DNA of 64,000 bases from Segatella buccae ATCC 33574 (GTDB lineage: Bacteria; Bacteroidota; Bacteroidia; Bacteroidales; Bacteroidaceae). The stretch is taken from positions 802,731 through 866,730 of the forward strand of contig NZ_GL586311.1 of NCBI RefSeq assembly GCF_000184945.1. The letters are read 5' to 3'. Shown here piece after piece: positions 1,732 to 44,992 of this stretch. A program made the translations under genes and the position numbers. The notes below the pieces were generated by a model, which saw only the letters and a list, made by a program, of their open reading frames with translations, searched no databases and had not been told where the DNA came from. How positions within the stretch are numbered: position 1 is the first letter of the stretch; every line of letters starts with the position of its first letter.

Positions 1732-1967
1732 AATCGTAAGGTTTTAGGTGTTAAACATTGTCCGTTGCATAAACTCTCTATGGTCAAGCAAGTTCTTGAC
1801 TCTGCCGCAAAGTTAGACCAAAGGGGCTGACAAAGAAAGATGTTTCGCCTAAAAAGGCATAGGGAAATGCCTTTCGTTGTGGGGGAAATCCCCCTCCGGG
1901 CACTTCTCTTTAGCAACACAGACAATGCTCGTGGAATGCTCTTGATGTCAGAAGTTTTCGCAACGCA

Positions 1968-2322
1968 TTTGCATTCGGGCAAATCATGTAGTATCTTTGC
2001 ATTAGCAAGGGAAGCACGCAAGTGTTTCCCTTTTTTAAGTTCTAAACTCCCTAAAAGCCCCCCACCCCCCTGAAAGGGGCTTTCCATCCCTGCGATGGGG
2101 GTGTCGTTCGGCCCAAATGGCTTTGTAAAAGGGCCTCTTTGAGGTTGTCATCCGGGCCAAACGAGACTCCAAGTGTGGCCCTTTTGGATGGTCGCTTGGG
2201 CCGACTGAGAAAATTGGTGGGGCGGATCTGGGCGATGAGATGAATATTTTTAGAAAGCCAAAAGATAGGAGTGCTTTTGGCTGTAAGGCTTTTTCGAAAG
2301 ATTTAATAGTTCGTGCTATATA
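1968..2322 (+). repeat. Promoter-hairpin element, copy A (about 355 bp)
   Basis: First of four copies of one element. In order: TTTG (1968-1971), 20-bp spacer, TATCTTTG (1992-1999); a hairpin GGGAAGCAC / GTGTTTCCC with loop GCAA (2009-2030) followed by T6 (2031-2036); a C-rich stretch; a large imperfect stem-loop with arms starting TCGGCCCAA at 2108 and ending TTGGGCCGA at 2204; then a tail ending in TTTAATAGTTCGTG. The predicted transcript start is only about 5 nt before the hairpin, so the product would be about 30 nt. The copy lies in the 807-bp gene-free stretch 1732-2538, antisense to both neighbouring genes. The rest of that stretch holds only the GC-rich repeat at 2383. Confidence 0.85.
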
Positions 2323-7245: not shown

Positions 7246-8757
7246 ATGGCTCAGAAATTAGTTCAAACACAGGTTCAGAAACAACAACTCTTACAACGGC
7301 TCTCGGCCCAACAGATGCTGCAAGTGAAGTTGTTGGAAATGCCCCTGACCGAACTTGAACAGAACATCAATGCCGAACTCGACGACAATCCGGCACTGGA
7401 GAGTGCGTCGGCCGATGATGCGTTGGACCTTGAGGGAGCTGATGGTGGCGACACGACCGGCGACAGCAGCGAACAGGAAGACGGGGAGACATCGGAGTAT
7501 GAACGTGAGGAGCGCGAAGACGCACTCGATGCCGCATTCGACAACATAGGTCGGGACGACGAAATGCCCGAGGTGGGCGGCAACCGCAACTACCAGAATG
7601 CCGACTACGAGGAGACCGTCTACGGTGACACCACCTCTTTCTATGACACGCTGAAAGAGCAGATGGACATGCAGCACCTCACCGAGAAGCAACACGACAT
7701 GATGGAATACATCATCGGGTCGCTCGATGACGATGGACTGTTGCGCAAAGACCTCGACAGCATCAGCGACGAACTGGCCGTCTATCACAACATCGATGCC
7801 AGTGCGGACGAATTGGAAGAGGTGCTCCACCGCCTGCAGGAATTCGACCCCGCCGGTGTGGGAGCCCGCAACTTGCAGGAGTGTCTGTTGCTACAAATAG
7901 CCCGCAGGCCCGACGACAAGCTCCGCAGGGCCATGGAGGAGGTCATCACCAACTATTTTGACGCTTTCACCAAGAAACATTGGGACAAGATACAGGCCGG
8001 GCTGCAACTCTCAGACACACAGACGGAGACGCTGCAAAACGAATTGCGGCGACTCAACCCGAAACCCGGTGCCTCGCTCGGAGAGACCATAGGACGCAAC
8101 TTGCAACAAATCACGCCCGACTTCATCGTAGACACTAACGAAGACGGTTCCGTCTCGTTCAGCCTGAACCGTGGCAATATGCCCGAACTGCACGTTTCAC
8201 CCTCGTTCACCGAAATGCTCGAAAACTACAAGAACGACAAGCATCCGGCCGGCCGGCAGACCAAAGAGGCTCTCGTCTACGCCCGCGAGAAGGTGGAAAA
8301 GGCACAGAGCTACATCGAGGCCATACGGCAACGCCGGCTGACGCTCTATGCCACGATGAAGGCTATCATCGAAATACAACACAAGTTTTTTGCCGACGGC
8401 GACGAGGCCGACCTCAAACCGATGATCCTCAAAGACGTGGCCGACCGCACGGGACTTGACATCTCAACCATTTCGCGCGTGAGCAACGTGAAATATGCAC
8501 AGACCAAGTGGGGCACATACCCTCTGCGATTCTTCTTCAGCGATGGCTACACCACCGAAGACGGCGAAGAAATGTCTACCCGGAAAATCAAACTGGCCCT
8601 AAAAGACCTCATCGGCAAGGAGAACAAGAAGAAGCCCATGAGCGACGACACGCTGGCCGAGGAGATGAAAAAACTGGGCTACCCCATCGCCCGACGCACC
8701 GTTGCCAAGTATCGCGAGCAGCAGGGCATTCCGGTGGCGCGGCTGCGAAAAGAGTAG
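7246..8757 (+). CDS. rpoN: RNA polymerase sigma-54 factor
   Basis: 503 residues. Region I (about 1-50) is rich in Gln and Leu (KLVQTQVQKQQLLQRLSAQQ) and is the part that contacts activator ATPases. Residues 50-135 form the acidic linker (region II). The core-binding domain follows, and the C-terminus carries the RpoN box ARRTVAKYRE at about residues 482-491, which reads the -24 promoter element. It directs core polymerase to -24/-12 promoters and needs an enhancer-binding protein; none is encoded in this window. The start is supported by good agreement of region I with other RpoN proteins. Confidence 0.97.
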   Translation: MAQKLVQTQVQKQQLLQRLSAQQMLQVKLLEMPLTELEQNINAELDDNPALESASADDALDLEGADGGDTTGDSSEQEDGETSEYEREEREDALDAAFDNIGRDDEMPEVGGNRNYQNADYEETVYGDTTSFYDTLKEQMDMQHLTEKQHDMMEYIIGSLDDDGLLRKDLDSISDELAVYHNIDASADELEEVLHRLQEFDPAGVGARNLQECLLLQIARRPDDKLRRAMEEVITNYFDAFTKKHWDKIQAGLQLSDTQTETLQNELRRLNPKPGASLGETIGRNLQQITPDFIVDTNEDGSVSFSLNRGNMPELHVSPSFTEMLENYKNDKHPAGRQTKEALVYAREKVEKAQSYIEAIRQRRLTLYATMKAIIEIQHKFFADGDEADLKPMILKDVADRTGLDISTISRVSNVKYAQTKWGTYPLRFFFSDGYTTEDGEEMSTRKIKLALKDLIGKENKKKPMSDDTLAEEMKKLGYPIARRTVAKYREQQGIPVARLRKE

Positions 8758-20614: not shown

Positions 20615-20972
20615 GGAGCATATATCACGAACTATTAAACTTTTAGAAAAAGGCTGACATGCAAATTTCTCTCGCCCATTTCCCAATCCGATTCCATCCG
20701 CTTTATTCGACCCGGCCGACCCATCAATTTTCCCACTAAGCCCAAACGACATTGCAAAACGGCCACACCCAGAAGCTCACTCGGGCCGAACGAGAATGCA
20801 AAAGAGGCCGTTTCACAATGCTGTTTGGGCTGAATTGCAACCCAAAGCAGGGTTGAAAAGCCCCCTTTAGGGAGTTGGGGGTCTGTAGGTTGAATGGAAA
20901 CTAAAAAAAGGGAAACGCCAACGCGCTTCCCTTGCCAATGCAAAGATAATGAAAAACAAGCCCGAATGCAAA
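20615..20972 (-). repeat. Promoter-hairpin element, copy C (about 358 bp)
   Basis: Same plan as copies A, B and D, read on the minus strand. TTTG (20972-20969), 20-bp spacer, TATCTTTG (20948-20941); hairpin GGGAAGCGC / GCGTTTCCC with loop GTTG (20931-20910), then seven T (20909-20903); a C-rich motif CCCCCAACTCCC; the large stem-loop between 20830 and 20740 with outer arms GCCCAAAC / GTTTGGGC; and the tail ending TTTAATAGTTCGTG near 20628. It occupies most of the gap 20534-21111 between the RhuM gene and the second pectate lyase gene and is the only copy that points into a gene on the same strand. Confidence 0.85.
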
Positions 20973-21111
20973 TCGGCGAAGAAAAAACCGGACAGAACTA
21001 CGAGTGTCAAGAAAATGGCAGAGACGGCAGACAAGACACGCCATGCAGACTCCGGAGGAGAGTTCCAAACGCGCTATCCCGTCGGTTTTCTATCCATGCC
21101 TATCCCGAAGG

Positions 21112-24511: not shown

Positions 24512-24542
24512 TTTGCGGTATCATGCGTTTTATGTACCTTTG
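24512..24542 (+). promoter_or_regulatory. leuS promoter
   Basis: TTTG (24512-24515), an exact 19-bp spacer, TACCTTTG (24535-24542). The predicted start is near 24548, giving a leader of about 60 nt. This rules out the longer open frame that begins at 24513, because it starts inside the promoter. Confidence 0.85.
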
Positions 24543-24608
24543 CACATTATCAATGGGCGCACACGCGTGGCCCTCGACTTATCCGAAAAGAAAATCAATC
24601 AGACTAAA

Positions 24609-27512
24609 ATGGAATACAACTTCAGAGAAATCGAGAAGAAATGGCAACAGAAGTGGGTGGAGAACAAGACCTACAGAGTCGTTGAAGACGAATCACGAAA
24701 AAAGTTCTATGTGCTCAACATGTTTCCCTACCCGTCGGGAGCAGGACTGCACGTGGGCCATCCGCTGGGCTACATTGCCAGCGACATATTCGCCCGTTTC
24801 AAACGGTTGCAAAGCCTTAACGTGCTCAACCCCATGGGCTACGATGCCTACGGACTGCCCGCTGAGCAGTATGCCATACAGACGGGGCAGCATCCCGAGA
24901 AGACGACAACGGAAAATATCAACCGCTATCGGGAGCAGCTGGACAAAATCGGTTTCTCTTTCGACTGGGACAGAGAGGTGCGCACCTGCGACCCTGCATA
25001 CTACAAGTGGACTCAGTGGGCTTTCCGGAAGATGTTTGGTTCCTACTATTCCAATGACACGAAGCAGGCCAGGCCCATCGAAGAACTCATCTCCCACTTC
25101 GAACAACAGGGCAGCAAAGGACTGAACGCAGCCCAAAGCGAAGAGCTGGACTTCACCGCCGACAAGTGGAAAGCCATGAGCGAGAAAGAGCAACAGCAAA
25201 CGCTGATGAACTACCGTATAGCCTACATGGGCGAAACGATGGTGAACTGGTGTCCGGGACTGGGCACGGTGCTGGCCAACGACGAGGTGGTGGACGGCGT
25301 GAGCGAGCGCGGAGGCTATCCTGTGGTGCAGAAGAAGATGAGACAGTGGTGCCTGCGCGTGAGTGCATACGCACAGCGGCTGCTTGACGGACTGGACACC
25401 GTGGACTGGACCGACTCCATCAAAGAGACCCAGCGCAACTGGATAGGTCGATCGGAAGGTACGGAGATGCAATTCAAGGTGGCCAATCAGGATTTCGACT
25501 TCACCATCTTCACCACCCGGGCCGACACCATCTTCGGCGTCACCTTCATGGTGCTGGCTCCCGAGAGTGAACTCGTGGAAAGGCTCACCACCGAAAGCCA
25601 AAAGAAGGAAGTGGAGGAGTATCTGGCCTACGTGAAGAAACGCACTGAACTGGATCGCATGAGCGACCGCAAAGTGACGGGTGTCTTCTCGGGCAGCTAT
25701 GCCGTCAACCCGTTCACGGGCGACAAGATTCCCGTTTGGATTTCCGAATATGTGCTGGCCGGCTACGGCACGGGAGCCATCATGGCCGTGCCTGCCCATG
25801 ACAGCCGCGACTATGCCTTTGCCAAGCATTTCGGTCTGCCCATCGTCCCACTCATCGAAGGGGCCGACGTGAGCGAGGAGAGTTTCGATGCCAAAGAGGG
25901 CATTGTGACCAATTCGCCGGCCGATGGCAAGACGGCACTCGACGGATTCAGCTTGAACGGAATGACCGTAAAAGAGGCCATCGAGGCCACCAAGACTTTC
26001 GTGACAGGGCACGGGCTCGGCCGAGTGAAAGTGAACTATCGTCTGCGCGATGCCATTTTCTCCCGCCAACGCTACTGGGGAGAACCGTTCCCGGTGTATT
26101 ACAAGGACGAAATGCCCTACATGATACCCGAAGACAAACTGCCTTTGGAGTTGCCGGAGATTGACGAATACAAGCCCACAGAGACGGGTGAACCGCCATT
26201 GGGACGCGCCAAGAAATGGGCGTGGGACACGGTGAAGAACGAGGTGACGGACAAGAGCCGCATAGACAACCACACGGTGTTCCCACTCGAACTGTTCACC
26301 ATGCCGGGATTTGCAGGCAGTTCGGCTTACTACCTGCGCTACATGGATCCGAAAAATGGCAAAGCACTCGTCAGCAAGAAAGCAGATGAATATTGGCAGA
26401 ATGTGGACTTGTATGTCGGAGGCACGGAACATGCCACGGGGCATCTCATATATTCGCGCTTTTGGAACAAGTTCCTGCACGACTTAGGGGTCAGCTGCAA
26501 GGAGGAACCGTTCCAAAAACTGGTGAACCAAGGAATGATACAAGGCCGCTCCAACTTTGTCTACCGTGTGAACAGTGACGACCACGACAAGGCTCCGGTG
26601 TTCGTAAGCCTTGGCCGGAAAGACCAATACGATGTCACACCTATCCATGTTGATGTGAATATCGTGGACAACGACATTCTCGACATAGAGGCTTTCAAGG
26701 CTTGGCGACCGGAATATGCCAATGCCGAATTTATCTTTGAAGACGGCTCCGACTCCCAAAACGCCTCCCATACAAGCGATTCAACAGGCAGAATCTATAA
26801 ATGCGGCTGGGCCGTGGAGAAGATGTCGAAGAGTATGTTCAATGTCGTTAACCCCGATATGATTGTCGAAAAGTACGGTGCCGACACCCTGCGGCTGTAT
26901 GAAATGTTCCTCGGGCCCGTGGAACAGAGCAAACCTTGGGACACCAACGGCATCGACGGGTGTCACCGTTTCCTCAAGAAATTTTGGAATCTGTTCTATG
27001 ACAACCGCACGGGAGAGTCGCTCATAACGCTGGACGCACCTACAGCGGATCAGTTGAAGTCGCTCCACAAACTCATCAAGAAAGTCACGCAGGATATCGA
27101 GAACTTCTCTTACAACACGGCCATTTCGGCTTTCATGATTTGCGTCAACGAACTGGGACAGAGCAAGTGCCACAGCAGGGAAGTGTTGAGAGAACTCATC
27201 ATTCTGCTGGCTCCGTTTGCTCCGCACATCGCCGAAGAACTTTGGGAAGCACTCGGCAACGAAGGAAGCGTGTGCGATGCACAGTGGCCGGCATGGGAAG
27301 AACGCTACCTTGTTGAGAGCGAGATGCAACTCACCGTGTCGTTTAACGGAAAGGCGCGTTATCAAAAGACTTTCCCAATGGATGCACAGAATGCCGACAT
27401 CGAGAAAGCCGTGCTCGAAGACGAGAGGAGCGGAAAGTATCTTGAAGGCTTACAGATGCTGAAAGTGATCATCGTTCCGAAGAAGATAGTCAACGTTGTA
27501 TTGAAAAAATAA
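24609..27512 (+). CDS. leuS: Leucyl-tRNA synthetase
   Basis: 967 residues from the ATG at 24609 ([16 protein letters not shown]), the start expected from homologues and from the promoter position. The HIGH motif appears as HVGHPLGY near residue 47, the class I KMSKS motif as KMSKSMFN near 738. The CP1 editing domain (about 240-450) includes [15 protein letters not shown] with the threonine-rich editing site, and the C-terminal anticodon and tRNA-binding parts are complete. The length is somewhat above the E. coli enzyme (860), owing to inserts. It charges tRNA-Leu in the cytoplasm. Followed by yitT-like and rdgB genes in the same direction. Confidence 0.98.
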
Positions 27513-33229: not shown

Positions 33230-33401
33230 TAATTTGCCACTTATCATTTCTGAAAAAAATAATCTTAGAACAATGAATAAGCGATCATAACATGGGAAAC
33301 ATCTGGAAAAAACATCGTCGGAAGGCAGCTGTAAAGCACTTATACATCAATTATAGCAGGAAAAATAAAGTATTAAATCTGTCAACAACTTTCACTACCA
33401 A

Positions 33402-33713
33402 TTTGCATTCGGACAAATAATGTAGTATCTTTGCAATAGCAAGGGAAGCACGTGCGTGCTTCCCTTTTTTAGTTTCCTAAATCAACAACACCCCCCCAGC
33501 CCACTTAAAGGGAAATTTTCGGCCCAAATGGCTTTGCAAAAGGGCCCGAATGGGCTTTCAAGTGTGGCTCTTTTGAAATGTCGGTTGGGCCGAGTGAGAT
33601 TTTTGATGGAGCAGATGGAGATAATAAGTTGGAAAGAATTGAGAAGAGAAATAGGCATGGAAAAATTCCGTGTAAGGCTTTTTCGAAATATTTAATAGTT
33701 AAGACTATAGGAT
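33402..33713 (+). repeat. Promoter-hairpin element, copy B (about 312 bp)
   Basis: TTTG (33402-33405), 20-bp spacer, TATCTTTG (33426-33433); hairpin GGGAAGCAC / GTGCTTCCC with loop GTGC (33443-33464), all Watson-Crick pairs; T6 (33465-33470). The large stem-loop runs from 33519 (TCGGCCCAA) to 33593 (TTGGGCCGA). The tail GTAAGGCTTTTTCGAAA then TTTAATAGTT ends near 33713. It lies in the 570-bp gap 33230-33799 between the convergent acyltransferase and GT2 genes. The gap outside the element is AT-rich and shows no supportable gene. Confidence 0.85.
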
Positions 33714-44276: not shown

Positions 44277-44461
44277 TGTCGTTTCTATTGATTTACGGCG
44301 AATCGTATGGGTCAAACGGCGAAAATACATTCTCTTCATTCGACCCATTGGCCAAAACTTTTTCTTTGCCGACGAATGAAGCTGGTGAAGCGAATGTAGG
44401 TTGCGGGAATAGATTCGCATAATCCGCACTATTCGCCGACAGAAAGCATATAGCACAAAAC

Positions 44462-44800
44462 TTACTCAGATTGAAAAAAAGCCTTACACGCCTTTTTGTT
44501 GTATTCCCTCGTTTGTCTATTTCCATCCGCCTTATCAGCCCGATTATCCCCATTAGTTTTCTCACTAAGCCCAAACGACATTGCAAAACGGCCACAGTCG
44601 GAAGCTCGTTCGGCCCATCTGAGAATGCAAAAGAGGCCGTTTCACAATGCTGTTTGGGCTACAATTCCGCCCAAACAGCATTGAAAAGCCCCCTTTAGGG
44701 GGTTGGGGGTCTGTAGGTTGAATGGAAACTAAAAAAAGGGGAACGCCATTGCGCTCCCCTTGCTTATGCAAAGATAGTCATATTTTCGCCCAAATGCAAA
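44462..44800 (-). repeat. Promoter-hairpin element, copy D (about 339 bp)
   Basis: Read on the minus strand: TTTG (44800-44797), 20-bp spacer, TATCTTTG (44776-44769); hairpin GGGGAGCGC / GCGTTCCCC with loop AATG (44759-44738), then seven T (44737-44731); CCCCCAACCCCC motif; large stem-loop between 44659 and 44579 with outer arms GCCCAAAC / GTTTGGGC; tail with GTAAGGCTTTTTTT near 44480. It is closest to copy C. It lies in the 840-bp gap 44186-45025 between fabI and the GH3-family gene, antisense to both. Confidence 0.85.
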
Positions 44801-44992
44801 TGTGATGCGAAATATATTGACATTGAATGGAATTGTTTTTAAAGTTGTTATTGCCGCCTATACCATTTCGGGGATAAAATATTCAAATGATTTCATTCTT
44901 ATACCCGGACAGTGGTTATTTCCCGATCTACTCCTCTTCCCGCCACGATTATTAAATTTTGAAAATTGTGCCATTATCTCAAAAGATTAGAT

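Follow-up and report, generated by a model that had tools for sequence, protein, structure and literature searches.

We have identified in Segatella buccae ATCC 33574 a repeated DNA element of 330–390 bases, which is non-coding, lies between genes and carries a predicted promoter with an immediate stop signal. Our preferred reading, to which we give a probability of about 0.4 on the strength of sequence comparisons, is that this interspersed non-coding sequence probably has a mobile origin and would work in the form of a phase-locked nucleoprotein loop. The observations that bear on it are the repeated anatomy of the element, the conservation of its boxes, promoter and terminator, the covariation in the terminator stem, a ladder of element lengths, the period of an internal array and the spacing between copies. 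Four copies, A to D, are located in the window, i.e. the whole 64,000-nt stretch of DNA that was analyzed (Table 1). An earlier note on this stretch described their promoters and hairpins. It passed over the matching boxes at the two ends, the array with its 22-bp period, the 11-bp steps in length and the distances that separate the copies, which look like the most informative parts and point to a structure at the level of DNA at least as much as at the level of RNA.

Anatomy of the element and its copies in the window

The borders, set from the end boxes and from the boundary alignment of 86 full copies, are sharp: the element begins with a TGTMA-N6-TTC box and ends with CTATA, and in between shows the layout of a leader, a short tandem array and a tail. 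The leader box stands 22 bp upstream of the -33 TTTG and is followed on its 3' side by TTTGCATT, a variable stretch of 16 bp, TATCTTTGCA, GCAA, an 11-bp stem with a loop of 4–5 nt, and a T-run. The motif TTTG-N20-TAnnTTTG within this segment agrees with the sigma-ABfr consensus (quoted in PMC7366714) and is the predicted promoter. Beyond the T-run there is a variable spacer, often with a small palindrome CCCCCAACCCCCTAAAGGGGGCTTT, then the array core with GGCC centres every 22 bp, a stretch with a 9-bp period, and the tail, in which TGTAAGGCTTTTTC, AGTT and the final CTATA follow one another. The tail contains the second TGTMA-N6-TTC box, so that the end boxes are direct repeats. Exact matches to the box are present in 42 of the 86 leaders and 71 of the 86 tails (about 0.02 expected in the tails), and none occurs in 20,879 nt of interior sequence.

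The plan proposed in the earlier note, namely TTTG, exactly 20 bp, TATCTTTG, a hairpin and a T-run, could be read directly at the positions claimed in all four window copies, and the statement that terminal inverted repeats are lacking agrees with the direct orientation of the boxes. The borders had to be revised, as the 5' end had been placed 22 bp short of the TGTMA box, where the element truly begins. The hairpin described as 9 bp long is present, and its stem comprises 11 bp when the flanking A-U pairs are counted. The supposedly common tail TTTAATAGTT is found in three of the four window copies, while the fourth has TCTGAGTAAGTTTTG.

The spacer of copy A includes, at 2057–2086, a short dispersed REP-like palindrome (approximately CCCCCAACCCCCTAAAGGGGGCTTT), which occurs in the spacers of many copies and also alone in flanks. 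Another dispersed repeat, approximately GTAGGGGC-GCGC-TTTATGCCTGCCCGCACG, lies at 2376–2423; it is found in both orientations, and also beside the copies at 42 kb, 71 kb and 3084 kb of C1 (L111, L132 and L120, respectively). The window, which encodes leucyl-tRNA synthetase (24513–27512) and sigma-54 (7246–8757), is otherwise an ordinary chromosomal segment.

Table 1. Features of the four element copies, in window coordinates.
Feature	Position	Strand	Remarks
Copy A, whole element	1946..2320	+	375 bp; genome C1:804676-805050
Copy A, leader box TGTCAGAAGTTTTC (TGTMA-N6-TTC)	1946..1959	+	
Copy A, -33 element TTTG	1968..1971	+	sigma-ABfr consensus
Copy A, -7 element TATCTTTG	1992..1999	+	sigma-ABfr consensus
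Copy A, terminator, stem AAGGGAAGCAC / GTGTTTCCCTT and T-run	2007..2036	+	covariation; fold z about -4.9
Copy A, predicted RNA start	~2003-2005	+	
Copy A, array core	2110..2202	+	GGCC centres at 2110, 2132, 2155, 2177, 2199; 22-23 bp apart
Copy A, tail box TGTAAGGCTTTTTC	2282..2295	+	336 bp past the leader box
Copy A, 3' end CTATA	2316..2320	+	
Copy B, whole element	33380..33709	+	330 bp; boxes at 33380 and 33671, 291 bp apart
Copy B, promoter and hairpin	TTTG 33402, TATCTTTG 33426, hairpin 33441-33466	+	
Copy C, whole element	20621..20994	-	374 bp; boxes at 20994 and 20659, 335 bp apart; ends in GATATA
Copy C, promoter and hairpin	TTTG 20972, TATCTTTG 20948, hairpin 20933-20908	-	
Copy D, whole element	44449..44822	-	374 bp; boxes at 44822 and 44488, 334 bp apart
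Copy D, promoter and hairpin	TTTG 44800, TATCTTTG 44776, hairpin 44762-44737	-	

Promoter, terminator and predicted RNA

In the terminator stem 98.4% of the alignment cells pair, and seven of the 11 pairs change on both sides. Covariation of this extent was reached in 0 of 500 shuffles and is lost when the partner is slid by 1–3 columns; G-U pairs are tolerated in the transcribed sense. A covariation scan returned as strong Watson-Crick pairs those of the terminator stem. The "large stem-loop" reported in the earlier note is better described as a degenerate 22-bp tandem array: its arms are unremarkable in the scan, unlike the terminator stem, and we rejected a large RNA stem-loop as unsupported by covariation among the best pairs. 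The fold of the interior is only modestly more stable than that of shuffled sequences (z about -2 on either strand). The exact promoter is kept in 83 of the 86 full copies, compared with 10 of 16 copies without a clear tail. Both promoter and terminator are under selection, so that the element would probably yield a short transcript of about 33 nt that ends at the terminator.

The loop and the bases that precede the stem vary among 64 copies, hence the predicted RNA would have no shared seed. This variability speaks against a large paralogous family of FopS-like sRNAs, in which more than 100 promoters would give rise to ~33-nt hairpin RNAs acting in trans. Such a family would agree with the retention of promoter and terminator in nearly all copies and with the covariation and tolerated G-U pairs on the transcribed strand, but it leaves the tail box, the array and the ladder unexplained, and we consider it quite unlikely. 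A promoter followed by a terminator is also the plan of an attenuator; however, the downstream gene faces the element only about half of the time and no downstream genes are common to the copies. A role as a cis-acting attenuator or promoter for the downstream gene is thus disfavoured and appears very improbable.

Length ladder, array and the proposed loop

Apart from S. buccae (G000, the genome of the window), the element was found in a second carrier species (G016) and in Segatella maculosa (G379). The distances between the two boxes form a ladder of 282, 292, 302, 313, 324, 335 and 347 bp, with a period of about 10.9 bp, and a single ladder of approximately 26–32 whole turns of 10.8 bp accommodates all three species. 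The length from TGT to CTATA clusters in the 86 full copies at 330, 352 and 374 bp (R 0.80 at 10.9 bp): most values fall within 329–335, 350–354 or 372–377 bp, a few at 321, 341–344, 362–365 or 386 bp, and none at 336–340, 355–361 or 366–371 bp. In G016 the distance to the tail motif takes the values 272, 284, 294/295, 304/305 and 316 bp (R 0.97). Because the copies share ancestry, P-values for these periodicities are only nominal. In 23 copies with at least two indels, phasing is poor for the single events (R 0.40), the sizes of which vary with the alignment, but good for their totals (R 0.84). A helical period of ~10.9 bp was also deduced for the repression loops of the lac repressor in vivo (PMC1831498).

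The interior of the element shows base identity far above that of shuffled sequences at lags of 22, 44 and 66 bp, with z-scores of 28, 31 and 21 in G000 and 35, 24 and 20 in G016, whereas the flanking DNA shows codon periodicity only. The array motif differs by species, being GGCC-centred in G000 and TGCGTCA-like in G016; in S. maculosa, inspection by eye suggests more than one motif between copies.

Comparison of nearest copies revealed differences at 5.7% of the box and promoter positions, as opposed to 50.6% of the neighbouring free leader positions. The boxes stay intact on long terminal branches, which argues against a dead insertion. One copy, L085 in G016 and L192 in S. maculosa, is flanked on either side by the same genes in the two species and forms the sole orthologous pair secure on both flanks. 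Its leader has kept 66 of 80 bases while the adjacent intergenic flank does not align, which, for a small number of sites, argues for constraint in place. A second pair (L095/L203) has only one side in common. In two further cases (L204 and L075; L101 and the copy at 847 kb of C1) one gene is preceded by an element in both of two species, the orientation of the element being opposite.

Two phased boxes, one of them two turns above the predicted promoter, with a two-turn array between them, would be explained most simply by a protein-bridged loop around a fire-and-stop promoter. One candidate protein would bind the TGTMA-N6-TTC box at each end of the element and, since an integral number of turns separates the boxes and places them on one face of the helix, bridge the ends into a loop, with the 22-bp array in between covered by protein in the same register. 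From the leader box, 22 bp (two turns) above the -33 box, the complex would sit against RNA polymerase, and the loop could set the frequency with which the sigma-ABfr-type promoter fires. Transcription would terminate at the hairpin, ~33 nt from its start, and the hairpin may also shield the array from transcription. In having the same site twice, in helical phase and at a promoter, the element resembles a DNA repression loop, in which a protein would bridge the sites. An array motif that differs between species and, by eye, between copies of S. maculosa is, however, odd for one sequence-specific protein, and counts against the loop protein. Box geometry of this kind would also suit a transposition synapse or the formation of a 350-bp circle, and the ladder could arise partly from gain or loss of 22-bp units, or from a constraint imposed by a transposition complex or minicircle.

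Distribution, mobility and comparison with known systems

G000 was surveyed by searches and by inspection of selected stretches. A BLASTN search with copy A revealed about 40 copies (66–79% identity), and a pattern of the promoter and hairpin start gave 47 exact matches in the genome against 0 for the reversed control, which puts the layout far outside the range of chance. A covariance model (R1) built from 64 leaders detected 104 leader-bearing copies at E < 1e-3, of which 103 scored 1.2e-5 or better, and a tail model (R3) added three sites with the leader wholly or partly inside an assembly gap. The four copies counted in the earlier note are therefore real members of a family with at least 104 in this genome, and the further copies anticipated there also exist in two other species; the approximate numbers in the three carriers are 104, 31 and 13. 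Among 398 genomes of the genus, true matches are confined to G000, G016 and G379. The model R2, built without G000 sequences, recovered from 399 genomes of the family the G000 copies and nothing else, with neither G016 nor G379 among the matches. In a search of a genome collection S. maculosa was the only true match, and the identity of its record with the G379 locus over 3 kb assigns G379 to this species; matches in Pedobacter (upstream of an ordinary gene) and in Chitinophagales lacked the hairpin and were rejected. The element is absent from the nearest sampled relatives of G000 according to leuS, and from the viral contigs searched with the pattern. Rfam gave no match in the window at the gathering score and only chance-level matches in eight loci, permissive search included, so the comparison proposed in the earlier note did not lead to a known Rfam family; nor did our literature search turn up an element of this kind in Prevotella or Segatella, consistent with that note's claim that no family with such a layout has been described.

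Several copies (L214, L215, L216, L145 and L033) are interrupted by runs of N that mark assembly gaps. The two with 264 N probably represent unresolved near-identical copies, and an insertion could be concealed in those with 1475 and 2360 N. A regional subfamily between 1.2 and 2.52 Mb of C1 in G000 (e.g. L119, L121, L133, L136 and L137) is distinguished by an additional CTATACTTTTG-like motif that precedes the final CTATA by exactly 59 bp.

Patchy presence combined with species-specific amplification is the behaviour of mobile DNA; insertion sites are mostly unlike between species, and the neighbouring genes are ordinary, 20 neighbours with unrelated Pfam domains revealing no common function. 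The copies also avoid one another: G000 has only three neighbouring gaps below 7 kb, against 22.6 +/- 3.7 expected from uniform placement, a null model that ignores gene layout. With intergenic slots approximately every 2 kb, the expected number of gaps below 5 kb would fall, by our estimate, from about 17 to 14; two were observed. No gap in G016 is shorter than 7.9 kb. Resemblance is somewhat greater between copies that lie near each other, and copies look mosaic by eye, which suggests local spread or gene conversion. It is possible, if doubtful, that the element is simply a non-autonomous mobile element of a new type, with boxes and array as sites for a recombinase or transposase supplied in trans. 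The ladder would then reflect a need for the ends to synapse or for a circle of ~350 bp to close, the spacing a kind of target immunity, and promoter and terminator would merely shield or prime the element. Against this stand the lack of terminal inverted repeats, the lack of a target duplication (no excess of matching 2–9 bp flanks was found at boundary offsets near the ends) and the lack of any extended copy whose ends enclose a gene, with the reservation that several copies are partly concealed by assembly gaps. All strong matches in a tail search for an autonomous partner were copies or copies cut by assembly gaps, and apparent orphan tails were rejected as long autonomous copies, being copies interrupted by runs of N.

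Dispersal over most of the G000 chromosome, with a mean gap of 31 kb and few gaps below 7 kb, would also suit an element that organizes the chromosome or its supercoiling, i.e. a dispersed wrapped complex which, lying beside a short transcription unit, would mark topological domains or relax them, in a role comparable to that of BIMEs, which bind gyrase. The two-turn array and the absence of a common neighbour function are in line with this role, as is the slight preference for convergent over divergent sites (34 v 18; flanking gene orientations are 34 +-, 31 ++, 18 -+ and 17 --). We nevertheless regard it as unlikely: nearly all relatives manage without the element, which is thus not essential, strand order along the chromosome is random, with no orientation bias, and a stretch of 320 kb (2.52–2.84 Mb of C1) has no copies.

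Conservation in place favours the protein-bridged loop, while patchiness and exclusion favour a transposition synapse or circle; both may be true, one after the other. The usual explanation for repeats dispersed through bacterial genomes is mobile DNA in decay. We can envisage, with considerable reserve, a self-spreading, locally maintained nucleoprotein module, with ~100 copies, phased boxes, a fast-evolving two-turn array, a fire-and-stop promoter and mutual exclusion over ~7 kb, whose effect would be exerted on DNA topology or chromosome domains, with no gene product as intermediary, and which would constitute a new category of element. About 100 diverged copies that keep the helix phase between their ends in three species would provide a sequence record of a looping or synapsis constraint in living cells, so that both the proposed bridging protein and the phase rule can be tested directly. 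Should the elements organize supercoiling or the nucleoid, they would give access to domain structure in Bacteroidota through a defined sequence, which is rare; should they be mobile, they represent a new type without inverted ends.

Several known systems share part of this design. REP units are palindromes of 20–40 bp and Correia elements have terminal inverted repeats and TA duplications (both in Proteobacteria); like the present element, BIME/REP and Correia-type repeats are dispersed, intergenic and non-coding, and some bind gyrase or IHF or carry promoters, but to our knowledge they show no length ladder. Iteron arrays of plasmid origins and parC centromeres consist of tandem sites at 11 or ~22 bp, often beside a promoter, and thus resemble our 22-bp array beside a predicted promoter; the element differs in being chromosomal, in having no Rep or Par gene beside the copies examined and in an array motif that is not common to the species. 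Tn7/Mu-type elements combine 22-bp sites, inverted TGT...ACA ends and immunity, whereas our element finishes with CTATA and has its tail box in direct orientation. The loops of LacI/AraC type likewise use the same site twice, in phase and near a promoter, with an in vivo period of ~10.9 bp (PMC1831498), but at single regulatory loci rather than in ~100 genomic copies with an array between the sites. The BrickBuilt MITE of Porphyromonas gingivalis (19 copies with IS5-like terminal inverted repeats and a tandem minisatellite; PMC4596501) is also from Bacteroidota, always intergenic, and has a leader and tail around a short tandem array (23 nt, compared with 22 here); its leader has promoter activity (PMC4596501), where ours carries a predicted promoter. 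In contrast to BrickBuilt, our element has no IS5-type inverted ends, a degenerate array, more than 100 copies, a terminator 3' of the promoter and a helical length ladder. The FopS sRNAs of Bacteroides thetaiotaomicron (14 members of 65–70 nt with a conserved 5' seed; PMC11697453) are likewise a multicopy non-coding family with canonical sigma-ABfr promoters and intrinsic terminators, whereas our predicted RNAs of ~33 nt lack a conserved seed and lie inside a 350-bp module. Since the element does not show the features tested for MITEs, Rfam families, FopS-type sRNAs or Tn7/Mu ends, we regard it as a new family of dispersed intergenic elements, with a fair chance that it constitutes a new category.
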